Shown here: piece by piece, positions 6,550 to 29,949 of the stretch
How positions within the stretch are numbered: position 1 is the first letter of the stretch
Layout: each line of letters opens with the position of its first letter
NCBI RefSeq assembly: GCF_000337675.1
Contig: NZ_AOIB01000031.1
Coordinates: 101,695-147,770 of the forward strand
Direction of reading: 5' to 3'
Source: Natronococcus amylolyticus DSM 10524
GTDB lineage: Archaea; Halobacteriota; Halobacteria; Halobacteriales; Natrialbaceae
Length of the DNA stretch: 46,076 nucleotides
Translations under genes and position numbers: made by a program
The notes under the pieces: model-generated
Databases searched by the model: none
What the model saw: the letters and a program-made list of their open reading frames with translations, nothing else
Told to the model about the DNA's origin: nothing

Positions 6550-7650
6550 ATGAGTCGGAACGACCAGCGGAACACGATCCAACTGCTCATCAACGAGGAG
6601 GGAAATCGCGCTGCGGTTCGGGAACTGCTCACCGACTACTACGAGGTCGAGACCGACTCGTCGCTCGTCGAGGCCGACCTCTATCTCGTCGACGACTACT
6701 CCTTTCACGACTACCACAGCGCGCTCCGCGAGCACGTTGACGAGAGCGACCCGGTCTTCTGTCCCGTCGTCCTCGTCCGCCGCGACGACGACCCCCACAG
6801 GGTTCCGCTACCGAACCCTGACGAACGCGATCCACCGCTGCTCGTCGACGACATCGTCGAGGCACCGATCGATCGAACGCTGCTCTTTCGGCGACTGAAC
6901 ACGCTGCTCGTCCGACGCAGCCAGTCTCAGGAGCTGATGCACTACATCTCGAAGCTCGAGGAGTCGAACCGCTCGCTCGAGCAGTTCGCCTACGCCGCCA
7001 GCCACGACCTTCAGGAGCCGTTGCGGATGGTCTCGAGCTACCTCCAGCTCATCGACCAGCGCTACGAGGACGAGATCGACGAGGAGGGCCAGGAGTTTCT
7101 CAGCTACGCTATCGACGGTGCTAACCGGATGCGGGATATGATCGAGGGACTGCTCGAGTACTCCCGGGTCGACACCCGCGGCAGTCCGCTCGAGCCGACG
7201 GATCTCGGGGCCGTTCTCGACGAGGCGCTCGCGGATCTCAGGATGAAGATCAGCGAGCACGACGCCGAGATCGAAGCCGAACCGCTCCCGACCGTGCTGG
7301 GCGACGACGATCAGCTCCGACAGGTGTTCCAGAACCTGCTGAACAACGCGATCGAGTACAGCGGCGACGAACCCCCTCGGATATGGGTCAGTGCACGGCG
7401 GGAGGGTAGACAATGGCGGATCGACGTCTCCGACGACGGCGCCGGGATCGATCCCGAGGATCAGGACCGGATCTTCGAGCTGTTCCAGCGGCTACACAGC
7501 CACAAGGAACACGCGGGAAGCGGAATCGGGCTCGCCCTCTGTAAACGGATCGTCGAACGCCACGACGGACGGATCTGGGTCGACTCCGGCTCGAGTTCGG
7601 GTGCGACGTTTTCGTTTACGCTCCCGGCACTCGACACGCAACAGGACTAA
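6550..7650 (+). CDS. Histidine kinase with N-terminal receiver-like domain
   Basis: A 366-residue soluble sensor kinase. Residues 1-120 resemble a receiver-type alpha/beta domain (D-L-Y-L-V-D-D near 43-49) but lack a clear set of receiver acidic and Lys residues, so it may be a pseudo-receiver. A helical linker follows, then HisKA with H-box S-H152-D-L-Q-E-P-L-R. The ATPase domain shows the N-box F-Q-N-L-L-N-N-A-I-E-Y, G1 D-D-G-A-G-I, and G2 G-S-G-I-G-L-A-L. There are no transmembrane helices, so the signal is cytoplasmic. It is probably co-transcribed with the KaiC-like ATPase 40 bases upstream. No cognate response regulator is adjacent, as is common in haloarchaea. Confidence 0.93.
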   Translation: MSRNDQRNTIQLLINEEGNRAAVRELLTDYYEVETDSSLVEADLYLVDDYSFHDYHSALREHVDESDPVFCPVVLVRRDDDPHRVPLPNPDERDPPLLVDDIVEAPIDRTLLFRRLNTLLVRRSQSQELMHYISKLEESNRSLEQFAYAASHDLQEPLRMVSSYLQLIDQRYEDEIDEEGQEFLSYAIDGANRMRDMIEGLLEYSRVDTRGSPLEPTDLGAVLDEALADLRMKISEHDAEIEAEPLPTVLGDDDQLRQVFQNLLNNAIEYSGDEPPRIWVSARREGRQWRIDVSDDGAGIDPEDQDRIFELFQRLHSHKEHAGSGIGLALCKRIVERHDGRIWVDSGSSSGATFSFTLPALDTQQD

Positions 7651-24594: not shown

Positions 24595-27069
24595 TCAGTC
24601 CTCGAGCAGCGACCGCGAGGAGTTCGTGACGACCAGCAGGCTGCTGGCGCCCATCGCGAGTGCCGCGAACAGCGGGTTGAGCAGTCCTGTTACGGCAAGC
24701 GGGATCGCGATCCCGTTGTAACAGAACGCCCAGCCGATGTTGCCCTTCACCCGGCGGTCGGTCGCCCGCGCGAGTTCGAAGACGGTGTCGACCGAGCCGA
24801 GGTCGTCGTCGACGAGCGCGACGTCGGCCGCGTCGGCAGCCATCGCCGTCCCGCCGCCGAGTGCGATTCCGAGGTCAGCGGCGGCCAGCGCCGGGGCGTC
24901 GTTGGTTCCGTCGCCGATCATGACCGTCCGGCCCGTCTTCTTGAGCCGGTCGACGGTCTCGGCTTTCCCCTCCGGCGGGACGCCCGCGAACACCCGGTCG
25001 ACCGACGGCTCCTCGCGGAACCGACGGGCTGCGCGGGCGTCGTCGCCGGTGAGGACGACGACGTCGGTGTCCGTCTCCGCGATGGCCGACAGCGTCTCCG
25101 ACCAGCCCTCGCGGAGGTCGTCGCCGACGACGATCACGCCCTCGGCGACGCCGTTTCGGCCGACGGCGACCGGGACGCGTCCCGTCTCGCGACCGTCCTC
25201 TATTCGGCGGGCGACGTCGTCGGGAACCGTCCACCCCCGACCGTGAAGGAGATCGGGGTGGCCGACGACGATCTCGTCGCCGTCGACGACGCCTGAGACA
25301 CCGTTGCGGTGGCTCTCGAAGGATTCGATACCGTCGTCGGCTCCCCCCTGAGCCTCGAGGGCGTCCTCGGCCTCGCCGTCGGCTCGAGCCGAGTCCGGGG
25401 GTGACTCGGTTTCGAGCGTGCCGCCGTCAGCGACGGGGCGCTCGGCGGCGATCGCCCGCCCGATCGGGTGGGCCGAACGGCGCTCGAGCCGGGCAGCTTT
25501 CTCGAGCAGTTCGTCCTCGAGGTCGGTCTCGACGACGGTCATCTCTCCGGTCGTCAGCGTCCCCGTCTTGTCGAAGACGACGGTGTCGGCGTCGCGGATG
25601 CGCTCGAAGACGGTGTCGTCGAAGACGACGATCGACTGCTCGAGGGCGTCCCGAACCCCCGCTGCGACGGCCAGCGGGGTCGCCAGCCCGAGCGCGCACG
25701 GACAGGAGACGATCAATACGGTGAGCCCGACCAGCAGGGCGTCGGCGACGCCCGCACCGGTCAGCAGGTAGACGCTCGTCACGACGACTGAAAGGACGAG
25801 GACGAGCGGGACGAAGATCGTCGCCAGCTTGTCCGCGAGCTTCTGGATTCCGTGGCTCGAGCTCTGGAGGTCCCAGACGAGCTCGGTGACCCGATCGAGG
25901 CTGCTCGTGGCATCCTCGCCGACGCGGACGGTGACGGCGCCGTCGGTGACCAGCGAGCCGCCGACGACCTGGTCGCCGGCCGTCTTCCCGACCGGCAGGG
26001 ACTCGCCGGTGACGACGGCCTCGTCGACGGCGACCTCGCCCTCGACGACCTCGCCGTCGACGGGGATCCGCTCGCCGGCCCGCACGAGGAGCCGGTCGTC
26101 GGGCTCGAGGTCGTCGACGGCGACCTCCTCGTGGCTCCCGTCCGGGCCGACGCGACGGGCCTCGTCGATCTGGACGGCTGTGAGATCCGAGAGGCGCTCG
26201 GTGGCCTTCTCCTTGATCGTCGATTCGTAGTAGTTGCCGACCGAGACGATGACGATGATCGCGACGGTGACGTCGTAGTAGATGTGGTCGCCGCCGACGG
26301 CGATCGACAGCGTGCTGTAGAGGTAGGCGCTGACGGCCGCGATCGTCACCAGCAGGTCCATGTTCGGCGACCGGGTCTTCGTGGCGACGTAGGCACCCTG
26401 CAGGATCGGCTTGCCGGTCACGCCCAGTACGATCGTCGTCAGCGCGGCGATCATCAGGTAGAACGGCGTCGCGAGCTCGCTCGCCAGCGCCTGACTGAGG
26501 AACTCGTACGTCCGCTGGTCGTAGAACAGCCCGCCGAAGTAGGTGGGGTAGATGATCAGCAGGTACTGCATCATCACCATCATCCCCATGAGGACCCCGA
26601 CGATGATCCGGCCCATCATCCAGTTGTCGGCCTTCCGGCGCATGAACGCGTCCTCGCGGTCGTAGGCGCTGTAGCCCAGCCCGCTGATCGCCTCCTGGAG
26701 ATCGACCTGTGAGACGGCGTCGGGATCGTGGTCGATCCGCACCGTGTCGGTGACGTAGCTCGAGTCGGCGTTACTGACGCCCTCGGTCCGCAGCGCCGCG
26801 GACTCGATGAACGCCTCGCAGGTCGCACAGTGCATCCCGTCGACCTCGAGGTAGGTCGACTCGTGGTCGTCGGGTACCGCCCGACCCTCGTCGTCGTCCC
26901 GCTGGCGACGGACGTCCTCGGGGGCGACGTCCTCGACGTCGCCGAGCGCGTCGTAGACGTCCCGGCAGCCGACACAGCAGAAGCGGTTCCCCTCGTCGTC
27001 GGTGACGTCGCTGCCCTCGACGGGGAGCTCACACAGCATGCAACCGGTTTCGTGGGTGTGATCGGTCAT
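24595..27069 (-). CDS. Copper-transporting P1B-type ATPase, CcoI/FixI-like
   Basis: An 824-residue heavy-metal P-type ATPase. The N-terminus has a metal-binding module with C10-x-x-C13 and C31-C32-x-x-C35, then an HMA domain with G-M-H-C81-A-T-C84. The channel motif is [11 protein letters not shown], the phosphorylation site D-K-T-G-T-L-T, and the hinge [10 protein letters not shown]. The CPC motif indicates Cu(I). The extra N-terminal Cys cluster is typical of CcoI/FixI-type exporters that feed copper to cytochrome oxidase rather than detoxify it. The next gene, a UreH-like membrane protein, starts 3 bases upstream in the operon and supports that role. A ~45-residue acidic insert in the ATP-binding domain is unusual. 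Confidence 0.94.
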
Positions 27070-27072
27070 GAG

Positions 27073-27870
27073 TTAGTGATCGTGGGCGTCGGCGCCCGGT
27101 GCGTCGATCCCGTCGTAGAACGGGAGTTCGGGATGGGGCAGGTGGATCCCGATGCTCATCAGCCCGTGGGCGAAGAGGACGTAGCCCAGCACGACGAACG
27201 CGACCCCGAGCAGGCGGTGGACCCGCTGGCGGTGGACGACGTCGACCGACTCGATGACGGTGCCGTAGAGAAACACCGCGGGAACGGTCCCGATCCCCAG
27301 CGCTGCGAGCGCGAGGGCACCCCCGGCCGGCGACCCGGTCGCGAACGCGTAGAGGAAGGCCGGGTAGAGGATCGGACAGGGGAGCAGCCCGTGAAGCGCG
27401 CCCAGTCCGACGATGCCGGGGCCGTTCGCGAGCCGATCGACACGGCTCATCAGCCAGCCGGTCAGGCGCTCGAGGCCGGGCAGGTGGATCCCACCTGTGG
27501 TTCGGCCGAGCAGGTAGTAGATCCCGGTGGCGATGACGAACCCGCCGACGAGCAGGCCGACGCCGCCCCGGATCGGTTCGACCAGGGGCGTCAGCGAGTC
27601 GGTCGTGACAAAAAGGAGGCCGCCGAGCGTGCCGAAGAGGGCACCGATGAGCGTGTAGCTCGCGGTTCGACCGAGGTTGAACAGCGCGTGCTGGCGCACC
27701 TCGTAGGTCGACAGGTGAGAGCCGCGTTTCCCGGTCGTCGCGCCGTCGTCCATCCGACCCGCGTAGACGGTGACCAGCGGTCCACACATTCCGATACAGT
27801 GGGCGCCGGCCAGCAGGCCGATAAGCAGGAACAGCGCGACGTCGATACCGAGGAGGGTGAACGGATCCAT
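27073..27870 (-). CDS. UreH/TauE-SafE-like membrane protein, copper/cytochrome assembly
   Basis: A 265-residue membrane protein with about six hydrophobic segments of the UreH/DsbD-like transmembrane family. It has the diagnostic H-C-I-G-M-C-G-P-L near residue 25, and a second half-repeat with L-H-G-L-L-P-C-P-I-L-Y-P. The two Cys/Pro motifs sit in paired helices as in copper-handling homologues found with ccoI/ccoG genes. The copper ATPase follows it with a 3-base gap, so they are probably one transcript. The likely role is transfer of copper or reductant for a haem-copper oxidase. A sulfite/sulfonate exporter is a less likely reading. The cytoplasmic loop around G-A-T-T-G-K-R-G is basic. Confidence 0.85.
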   Translation of the reverse strand: MDPFTLLGIDVALFLLIGLLAGAHCIGMCGPLVTVYAGRMDDGATTGKRGSHLSTYEVRQHALFNLGRTASYTLIGALFGTLGGLLFVTTDSLTPLVEPIRGGVGLLVGGFVIATGIYYLLGRTTGGIHLPGLERLTGWLMSRVDRLANGPGIVGLGALHGLLPCPILYPAFLYAFATGSPAGGALALAALGIGTVPAVFLYGTVIESVDVVHRQRVHRLLGVAFVVLGYVLFAHGLMSIGIHLPHPELPFYDGIDAPGADAHDH

Positions 27871-28318: not shown

Positions 28319-28888
28319 TCAGTCGAGGGCCTCGCGCCGAACGAGTGTGTCCTCGGCGAGATACCGCTCGAGGACGTGGGCGTCGTCCTCGATGACCACG
28401 AGGCGTTCGCGAAGCAGTTCGCCGGTGGCCGTATCGCCCAGTCGTTCGACCTGCTCGACGTGGTCGCGAAACAGCGCCGCGAGCGTCGCGTAGCCGTCGA
28501 GATCGCGCTCGAGCGACGACCGCACGTCGTAGTGGTGGGGAGCTTCGATGCGGAGCGGGGCGTGCTGGCGGATCCCCATCGGACCGCAGACCGGCACCCC
28601 GCCGAGGGCGTGGACGCGAACCGCGAGGGCGTCGGTCGTCTCCGCGAGTCGATCGGCGGCGTCCTCGAGAAAGCTCCCGAGATCCTCGCGTTCGGCTCCC
28701 TCGAGCAGCCAGTAGTGTTTGCGAACCTGGTTGAACAGGATGTACAGTCCCGAGAGCTCGTCGTTCAGCGCGTCGACGATCCCTTCCGCCACGTCCCGGT
28801 CGATTCCGAGCTCGTTCTCGCCGATCGTGTTCCACTCCTGGCGGACGCGGTCCGCGCCGGGGCTTCGGAGGTGTGGCTCGCTCGCCAT
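28319..28888 (-). CDS. Dps/ferritin-like protein, copy 1, degenerate ferroxidase site
   Basis: A 189-residue Dps-superfamily four-helix-bundle protein resembling haloarchaeal DpsA in length and in segments such as L-F-N-Q-V-R-K-H-Y-W, L-A-V-R-V-H-A-L-G-G-V-P and the C-terminal I-E-D-D-A-H-V-L-E-R-Y-L. Aligned without gaps to the E. coli Dps ferroxidase ligands, H51 is Y59, H63 is G71, D67 is E75, D78 is D86, and E82 is V90. Only D78 is kept exactly. Iron oxidation by the usual inter-subunit site is therefore doubtful; a structural, DNA-protection or different-ligand role is possible. It ends the tandem pair, one base from copy 2, and both are probably co-transcribed. Confidence 0.85.
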   Translation of the reverse strand: MASEPHLRSPGADRVRQEWNTIGENELGIDRDVAEGIVDALNDELSGLYILFNQVRKHYWLLEGAEREDLGSFLEDAADRLAETTDALAVRVHALGGVPVCGPMGIRQHAPLRIEAPHHYDVRSSLERDLDGYATLAALFRDHVEQVERLGDTATGELLRERLVVIEDDAHVLERYLAEDTLVRREALD

Positions 28889-28889
28889 G

Positions 28890-29465
28890 TTACTTCGTCG
28901 CCTCCGTCAACACGAGCGTGTCGCTCTCGAGGAACTGCTCGATCGCGTGGGCGTCGTCCTCGAGGGTCGTCAGGTGGTCGTCCAGTCGCTCGGCCGTCCC
29001 GAAGTCGCCCGCCTCCCGGGCCAACTCGACGTGGTCGCGCACGCTCGCGACCAGCGTCGCGTACCCCTCGAGGTCGCCCGCGAGCGACGCGCGCAGATCG
29101 TACAGATCCTCCGCCTCGAGGTGGACCGCGGCGCGCTCCTGGATCGTCGGCGGCGTGTTCGGCGGGATCCCGCCGAGTTCGACGATCCGGACCGCGAGGT
29201 CGTCGTTGATCGCGCGGACCCGTTTGTACGCTCCCTGCAAGAAATCCGCGACCTCGCGGAACTCGGCACCCTCGGCCGTCCAGTAGTGCTTTCGAAGGAG
29301 ATAGAAGAGGTTGAACGAGCCGGCACAGTCGACGCCGAGGGCGTCGACGATCGCCTCGGCCGCCTCGGGCTCGATCCGGAGGTCGTTCGTCCCGACGGTG
29401 CCCCACTCCTGGCGGCGGTCGCCGGTTTCCGGTTCGCGAACCAGCCCGATCTCTCGTCTCGACAT
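28890..29465 (-). CDS. Dps/ferritin-like protein, copy 2, degenerate ferroxidase site
   Basis: A 191-residue paralogue of the gene 1 base downstream, with the same fold markers: L-F-Y-L-L-R-K-H-Y-W, L-A-V-R-I-V-E-L-G-G-I-P, and L-E-D-D-A-H-A-I-E-Q-F-L. Against E. coli Dps, H51 is Y61, H63 is A73, D67 is Q77, D78 is D88, E82 is V92. So both copies share loss of the His and Glu ligands but differ at the H63 and D67 positions. The His one residue before the tyrosine (H60) is kept in both. The ATG at 29465 is followed by a basic N-terminus, and an AT-rich TTATATTCT at 29490-29498 lies about 28 bases upstream as a TATA box. Confidence 0.85.
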   Translation of the reverse strand: MSRREIGLVREPETGDRRQEWGTVGTNDLRIEPEAAEAIVDALGVDCAGSFNLFYLLRKHYWTAEGAEFREVADFLQGAYKRVRAINDDLAVRIVELGGIPPNTPPTIQERAAVHLEAEDLYDLRASLAGDLEGYATLVASVRDHVELAREAGDFGTAERLDDHLTTLEDDAHAIEQFLESDTLVLTEATK

Positions 29466-29949
29466 ACCTGCTGTCTTTCGCCGGACGACTTATATTCTCT
29501 CTCCGGCAGATACATCGTCGTCTACGTCACGGTCCGTGGCACCCAGTCGGAACTGATACCTGATCCGGTTCTCGAGCCGACCGGCGAGTCGCTCGAGATC
29601 ACCGAGACAGAGTTCGACCGCTCCGAGACGGAAAGTCGGCTACCCTACGACACGCTCGGCTTCACGGGGTAACTCGGTGCGCTCGAGACGGGCCACCGCC
29701 GTCGAGCAGTAGCTCGGTCGCGTTCGCGGTCCTCACTTTCCCTTCGCTGTCCGCTCACGGGGCGCTACCAGCGTTCCTCCTTCCTCGCTCGCAAACGCAC
29801 TCGTCTGCTCACGGACGCGTAGTGTCCTCTGTTCACGGACACACAGCGTCCGTTCACACGGTATGCGAGACCAGAGGTCTCGCACTATTCGCACGGTCCG
29901 CGGGACCTTCGGTCTCACTCGACTCGCAAAAATCTATGCTAAAAAACCG
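29466..29949. other. Intergenic region with short repeats and hairpins
   Basis: About 480 bases. The first ~35 bases hold the TATA-like promoter of Dps copy 2. From 29505 to 29672 a plus-strand frame reads plausible acidic protein (Y-I-V-V-Y-V-T-V-R-G and L-P-Y-D-T-L-G-F-T-G at the end) but has no start codon. From 29753 to 29860 the octamer-like GCTCACGG/GTTCACGG recurs four times. A perfect 9-bp hairpin lies at 29864-29884 (TGCGAGACC, AGA, GGTCTCGCA). T-rich sequence just after the HMG-CoA synthase stop (minus strand, about 29931-29949) is a likely terminator. Confidence 0.5.

Follow-up and report, generated by a model that had tools for sequence, protein, structure and literature searches.

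Paired, ferroxidase-deficient Dps paralogues of haloarchaea as candidate subunits of a heteromeric Dps shell

We analyzed a 46,076-nucleotide stretch of the Natronococcus amylolyticus DSM 10524 genome, referred to as the window, in which two Dps-like genes lie in tandem on the minus strand, as the original prediction had described. The first-transcribed, upstream gene of the pair, c2 (28890..29465), encodes a ferroxidase-deficient Dps-like protein of 191 amino acids, and the second gene, c1 (28319..28888), encodes another of 189 amino acids. Both frames are intact, a gap of 1 bp separates the c2 stop from the c1 start, and the two proteins are 46% identical to each other. A TATA-box-like element, AATATAAG, is located on the minus strand at 29489..29496, approximately 31 to 24 nt upstream of the c2 ATG, and is the probable leaderless promoter of the c2-c1 pair; the same element is found at equal distance in a Natronococcus relative (L036) and is slightly altered at another locus (L037). 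Both proteins match the Pfam Ferritin domain (PF00210; 4.8e-19 and 5.1e-18) and score 188.8 and 182.2 bits against the NCBIfam DpsA model NF041388, an equivalog model with a curated cutoff of 170 bits. Both also align without gaps to the H. salinarum DpsA structure 1MOJ (8e-40 for c1 and 8e-41 for c2). The AF2 model of c1 (pLDDT 83.3, pTM 0.79) is a whole Dps four-helix bundle with the BC helix, for which the closest PDB structure is 1moj (TM 0.84/0.88), and profile and four-helix bundle together place the proteins in the Dps/Ferritin domain family (PF00210).

The pair is patchily distributed and strictly linked. Of 391 Halobacteria genomes sampled in a class-wide search, 40 carry c1 and 39 carry c2, covering about 20 of 86 genera; in a family-wide search, both genes were present in the same 20 of 125 genomes, and in a phylum-wide sample, the pair was confined to the window's own order. 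The class-wide gene sets coincide, with the lone exception of a genome with a frameshifted c2. In all loci read, c2 precedes c1 and the two are directly adjacent; 42 of 43 loci have a spacing of -4 to +6 bp, and translation of the two genes is probably coupled. The only locus in which c2 and c1 are a few hundred bases apart is from Saliphagus (L052, 8037-8411). In 29 of 43 loci, a site-complete dpsA gene immediately precedes c2, ending no more than 13 bp before it; in the other 14, the window among them, it is nonadjacent. In two Halogranum genomes, Halogranum amylolyticum (L100:7380-8567) and Halogranum rubrum (L103:7314-8555), c2 and c1 are fused in one open frame of about 396 to 414 amino acids, with an acidic linker and without the c1 start codon. 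The AF2 model of the Halogranum fusion contains two four-helix bundles and a disordered linker, with a pTM of 0.55 at which the relative placement of the domains is not fixed. Gene fusion is classical evidence of physical association.

A Natrialbaceae locus (L038, about 7110-7650; G001:C3) appears to hold an ancestral c2-c1 fusion broken near the c1 N terminus by an insertion of approximately 0.5 kb, the hairpin-like ends of which (CCCACGA...TCGTGGG) resemble those of nonautonomous IS200/IS605-type elements. A frameshift splits c2 at L104 (7672-8219) and L118 (Halarchaeum rubridurum), where neither c1 nor the upstream dpsA is disrupted; the split would be due to either sequencing error or decay. 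Recoding at the in-frame stops listed for some c1 matches was rejected, as the frames are open over nearly their full length, and the stops are taken as lying at or near the C terminus. Apart from the Dps genes, no conserved neighbor was common to most genera among the loci compared. Downstream of c1 in the window, a CcoI/FixI-like heavy-metal P-type ATPase and a TauE/SafE-like membrane protein are encoded on the minus strand (24595-27870). Three further lineages (L040, L105, L118, and L128) also have heavy-metal P-type ATPases within approximately 6 kb downstream, some of which clearly belong to other subfamilies; this proximity may be due to chance.

Each ferroxidase center of Dps is shared between two subunits, one contributing H51, H63, and D67 and its twofold partner contributing D78 and E82 (PMC9140674, PMC6675082). 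An alignment including E. coli Dps bears out exactly the residues originally read at these positions, which are Y59/G71/E75/D86/V90 in c1 and Y61/A73/Q77/D88/V92 in c2. The accompanying claim that most ligands are missing and D78 alone is kept holds for the loss of H51, H63, and E82, but the D67 column is an unfair marker. In the normal, site-complete DpsA copies of tandem loci, this column is occupied by Glu (12), Gly (13), Asp (4), or Gln (1), and by Gly in H. salinarum; because it is also variable in normal haloarchaeal DpsA, it should not be counted as a loss. Glu is kept there in most c1 and c2 proteins, and the Gln of the window c2 is an outlier. The common loss comprises three ligands: H51 is replaced by Tyr, H63 by a small residue, and E82 by Ile or Val.

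We counted these columns in 47 c1 and 46 c2 sequences and in 42 sequences of normal haloarchaeal DpsA, of which 30 came from tandem loci and the remaining 12 did not. H51, H63, D78, and E82 are invariant in all 42 normal sequences. The H51 column is Tyr in 37/47 c1 and 42/46 c2 sequences; His is found in the H63 column of no c1 or c2, with Ala in 43/46 c2; and the E82 column (position 90 of c1) is Ile, Val, or Leu in 46/47 c1 and mainly Val or Ile in c2, where Glu is retained in 6/46. The D78 column is Asp in 47/47 c1 and 45/46 c2, and D78 is the only one of the NF041388-type intersubunit ligands (H51, H63, D78, and E82) present in the window c1 and c2. This pattern of ligand loss is far beyond chance, since it is common to 46 to 47 orthologues per gene from many genera. 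Other columns of H. salinarum DpsA have changed as well. The inner-face residues E72 and E75 of helix B correspond to Asp plus a small residue in c1 and to Lys or Arg plus Arg in c2, H46 corresponds to Asn in c1 but to Tyr in c2, and E131 corresponds to Val or Ala. E154, the threefold nucleation residue of H. salinarum DpsA (PMC12532284), is partly kept, as Glu in 15/47 c1 and Asp in 32/46 c2 (Glu and Asp, respectively, in the window copies), and the His164 column is Val or Thr in c1 and a mixture of Val, Ala, Glu, and Thr in c2. We rejected a heme site at the conserved His preceding the Tyr: every normal haloarchaeal DpsA carries the motif KHHW, so the His is ancestral and gives no sign of a new site.

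In a maximum likelihood tree, c1 and c2 each form one clade (SH-aLRT of 97 to 98 and 98 to 99, respectively), and together they form a joint clade with an SH-aLRT of 99, which becomes 100 in a reduced tree from which nine site and inner-face columns were left out. The joint clade does not group with normal DpsA but stands separate on a long stem (support of 99 to 100). The expectation that the pair would define clades with near-fixed Tyr and Ile/Val was borne out, as was that of a selected change: the clades are supported, their nonancestral residues are near invariant, and dN/dS between close Natronococcus relatives is 0.06 to 0.22. The loss of the ligands is ancient and has been selected. 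Because c1, c2, and c1 plus c2 each form a clade, a single ferroxidase-dead ancestor duplicated into c2 and c1 before their spread. The window copies are placed near Haloferacaceae sequences, away from the copies of Natrinema relatives, which suggests that the pair was transferred as a cassette.

That c2 and c1 are strictly paired, probably coupled in translation, fused in Halogranum, and complementary in charge points to a heterodimer. We derived the facing columns at the twofold axis from the published site geometry rather than from coordinates; helix-B columns summing to 161 oppose each other, so that in c1 numbering, 71 pairs with 90 and 75 with 86, and 79 is expected opposite 82. The combination of D79 in c1 and R82 in c2 is found in 43/46 pairs, whereas a c2-c2 contact at the axis would set Lys or Arg against Arg in 33/46; the axis of normal DpsA is Glu-Glu in 27/30. 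This suggests that a salt bridge selecting for the heterodimer has taken the place of an acidic, metal-binding axis. We consider it likely that c2 and c1 form an obligate heterodimer from which a Dps shell lacking its own ferroxidase center is built. In such a shell, c2 and c1 would be two specialized Dps subunits derived from the single ferroxidase-dead ancestor, and their obligate heterodimer would be the building block of a cage made either of six c2:c1 dimers or of a mixture with ordinary DpsA. At the twofold interface, Tyr together with small and aliphatic residues would stand where the iron ligands had been, and the Asp of c1 and Arg of c2 would take the place of the acidic axis pair, favoring the heterodimer. 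Among the selected new roles originally listed, a hetero-oligomeric shell is strongly favored by the pairing, coupling, fusion, and charges, and the DNA-binding and heme alternatives lack support.

It could instead be argued that c2 and c1 form separate homododecamers with distinct structural roles, their linkage reflecting only tandem duplication and coregulation. Most Dps proteins are homododecamers (PMC7762939), tandem paralogues are common, and the neighboring normal DpsA could in principle be a separate homo-oligomer. However, c1 and c2 always occur together apart from the single frameshifted c2, they are probably translationally coupled and are fused in Halogranum, and a c2 homodimer would bring Lys or Arg against Arg at the twofold axis; we therefore regard separate homododecamers as unlikely.

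A normal DpsA is encoded by all 23 of the 23 carriers checked. The original prediction had proposed looking for a normal dpsA elsewhere, and one was indeed found in this genome at C21:30454-30975, unlinked to the pair. By itself, a c2:c1 cage should show no fast iron oxidation. A mixed cage of catalytic DpsA and noncatalytic c2 and c1 is plausible because the carriers all encode normal DpsA, often in the same operon; since dpsA is unlinked in 14/43 loci, c2:c1 would be the constant unit and mixing with DpsA would be optional. The pair would serve the shell and storage or modulation, in the manner of the animal ferritin L chain or of the site-deficient subunit in a heterobacterioferritin, and normal DpsA would oxidize iron. 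A more tentative proposal is a three-part mini-ferritin in which DpsA and the obligately paired c2 and c1 form a heterododecamer whose interior is asymmetric in a defined way, a Dps equivalent of H/L ferritin, or else a pure c2:c1 cage in which the Cys and His residues of c1 hold another metal.

Known systems resemble the pair in part. With haloarchaeal DpsA (H. salinarum 1MOJ; NF041388), c1 and c2 share the fold, a gap-free alignment at 44 to 47% identity, the KH-x-W motif, Asp78, the C-terminal core, and a score above the family cutoff. Unlike DpsA, they lack the equivalents of H51, H63, and E82 and the inner acidic pair (E72/E75 in H. salinarum), and they form a separate, long-stem clade of always two coencoded kinds. 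The Magnetospirillum genes for Bfr1 and Bfr2 lie 11 nt apart, one product is site deficient, and a heteromeric cage is formed (PMC6529640). Like this pair and Shewanella Bfr12, in which adjacent, cotranscribed paralogues need each other and one subunit has altered site residues (PMC6529640, PMC12120770), c2 and c1 are two adjacent ferritin-like paralogues. However, the heterobacterioferritins are heme-containing 24-mers of the Bfr family in which one subunit keeps a working center, whereas both c2 and c1 are deficient and a 12-mer cage is expected. The animal ferritin L chain has no catalytic site and coassembles with the catalytic H chain (PMC7762939). Likewise, c1 and c2 have lost the catalytic site and kept the fold under selection, and a catalytic paralogue is present in the genome (23/23). 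Unlike c1 and c2, the L chain is of a single kind, forms a 24-mer, and carries acidic nucleation residues (PMC12532284); this acidic gain on the inner surface is absent from c1 and c2, where inner columns 79 and 82 are Asp or neutral in c1 and Lys or Arg in c2. The His-type ferroxidase Dps proteins Nostoc Dps4 and T. elongatus DpsA also depart from the canonical site (PMC6675082). However, Nostoc Dps4 retains a functional site that includes His78 and His164, the latter from a third subunit, whereas c1 and c2 have Asp at 78 and mostly Val, Thr, Ala, or Glu in the His164 column, and so are not of this type.

A new metal or redox role in place of iron storage, for example, at a c1 Cys/His site (Cys101 and His118, with His93 and His109) that perhaps binds copper, has only a slim chance of explaining the pair. 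Cys101 (36/47) and His118 (35/47) largely co-occur in c1 and are absent from normal DpsA, and a few lineages, that of the window included, have heavy-metal P-type ATPases within approximately 6 kb downstream. However, all Halarchaeum and Halolamina c1 sequences have Asn101 and Asp118, so the site is not defining, and the ATPases belong to differing subfamilies and are missing at most loci. The exchange of Cys101/His118 for Asn101/Asp118 is a concerted swap between two clades of c1. Loss of the ferroxidase site is also compatible with a Dps that binds DNA and structures the nucleoid but carries out no iron chemistry, but we consider this highly improbable: the tails lack the basic charge that a DNA-binding N terminus would have, with mean net charges up to position 30 of -0.4 (c1) and +0.3 (c2), and both proteins, like normal DpsA, have a strongly negative overall charge (-19 and -20). 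Decay of dpsA into pseudogenes would account for the loss of three ligands, the insertion in the L038 orthologue, and the frameshifted c2 of L118 but has next to no probability and is ruled out for the family as a whole by frames intact at nearly all loci, the low dN/dS, and the near-invariant, nonancestral site residues.

The open-access papers searched contained no account of this pair or of any heteromeric Dps. The NF041388 DpsA equivalog model also takes in ferroxidase-deficient paralogues, and in one RefSeq record, all three tandem genes are named dpsA (NZ_CP054708.1, 360916-362598; L129). If the obligate c2:c1 heterodimer is real, public annotation of three genes as DpsA would mask a distinct protein pair. 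Such a pair would also make available a two-component cage that is stable in salt and whose subunits can be addressed separately. Dps is usually described as 12 identical subunits, and a two-part Dps shell would be a kind not known. The division of labor between catalytic and noncatalytic subunits would then also exist among the mini-ferritins, independent of animal ferritin and the heterobacterioferritins.
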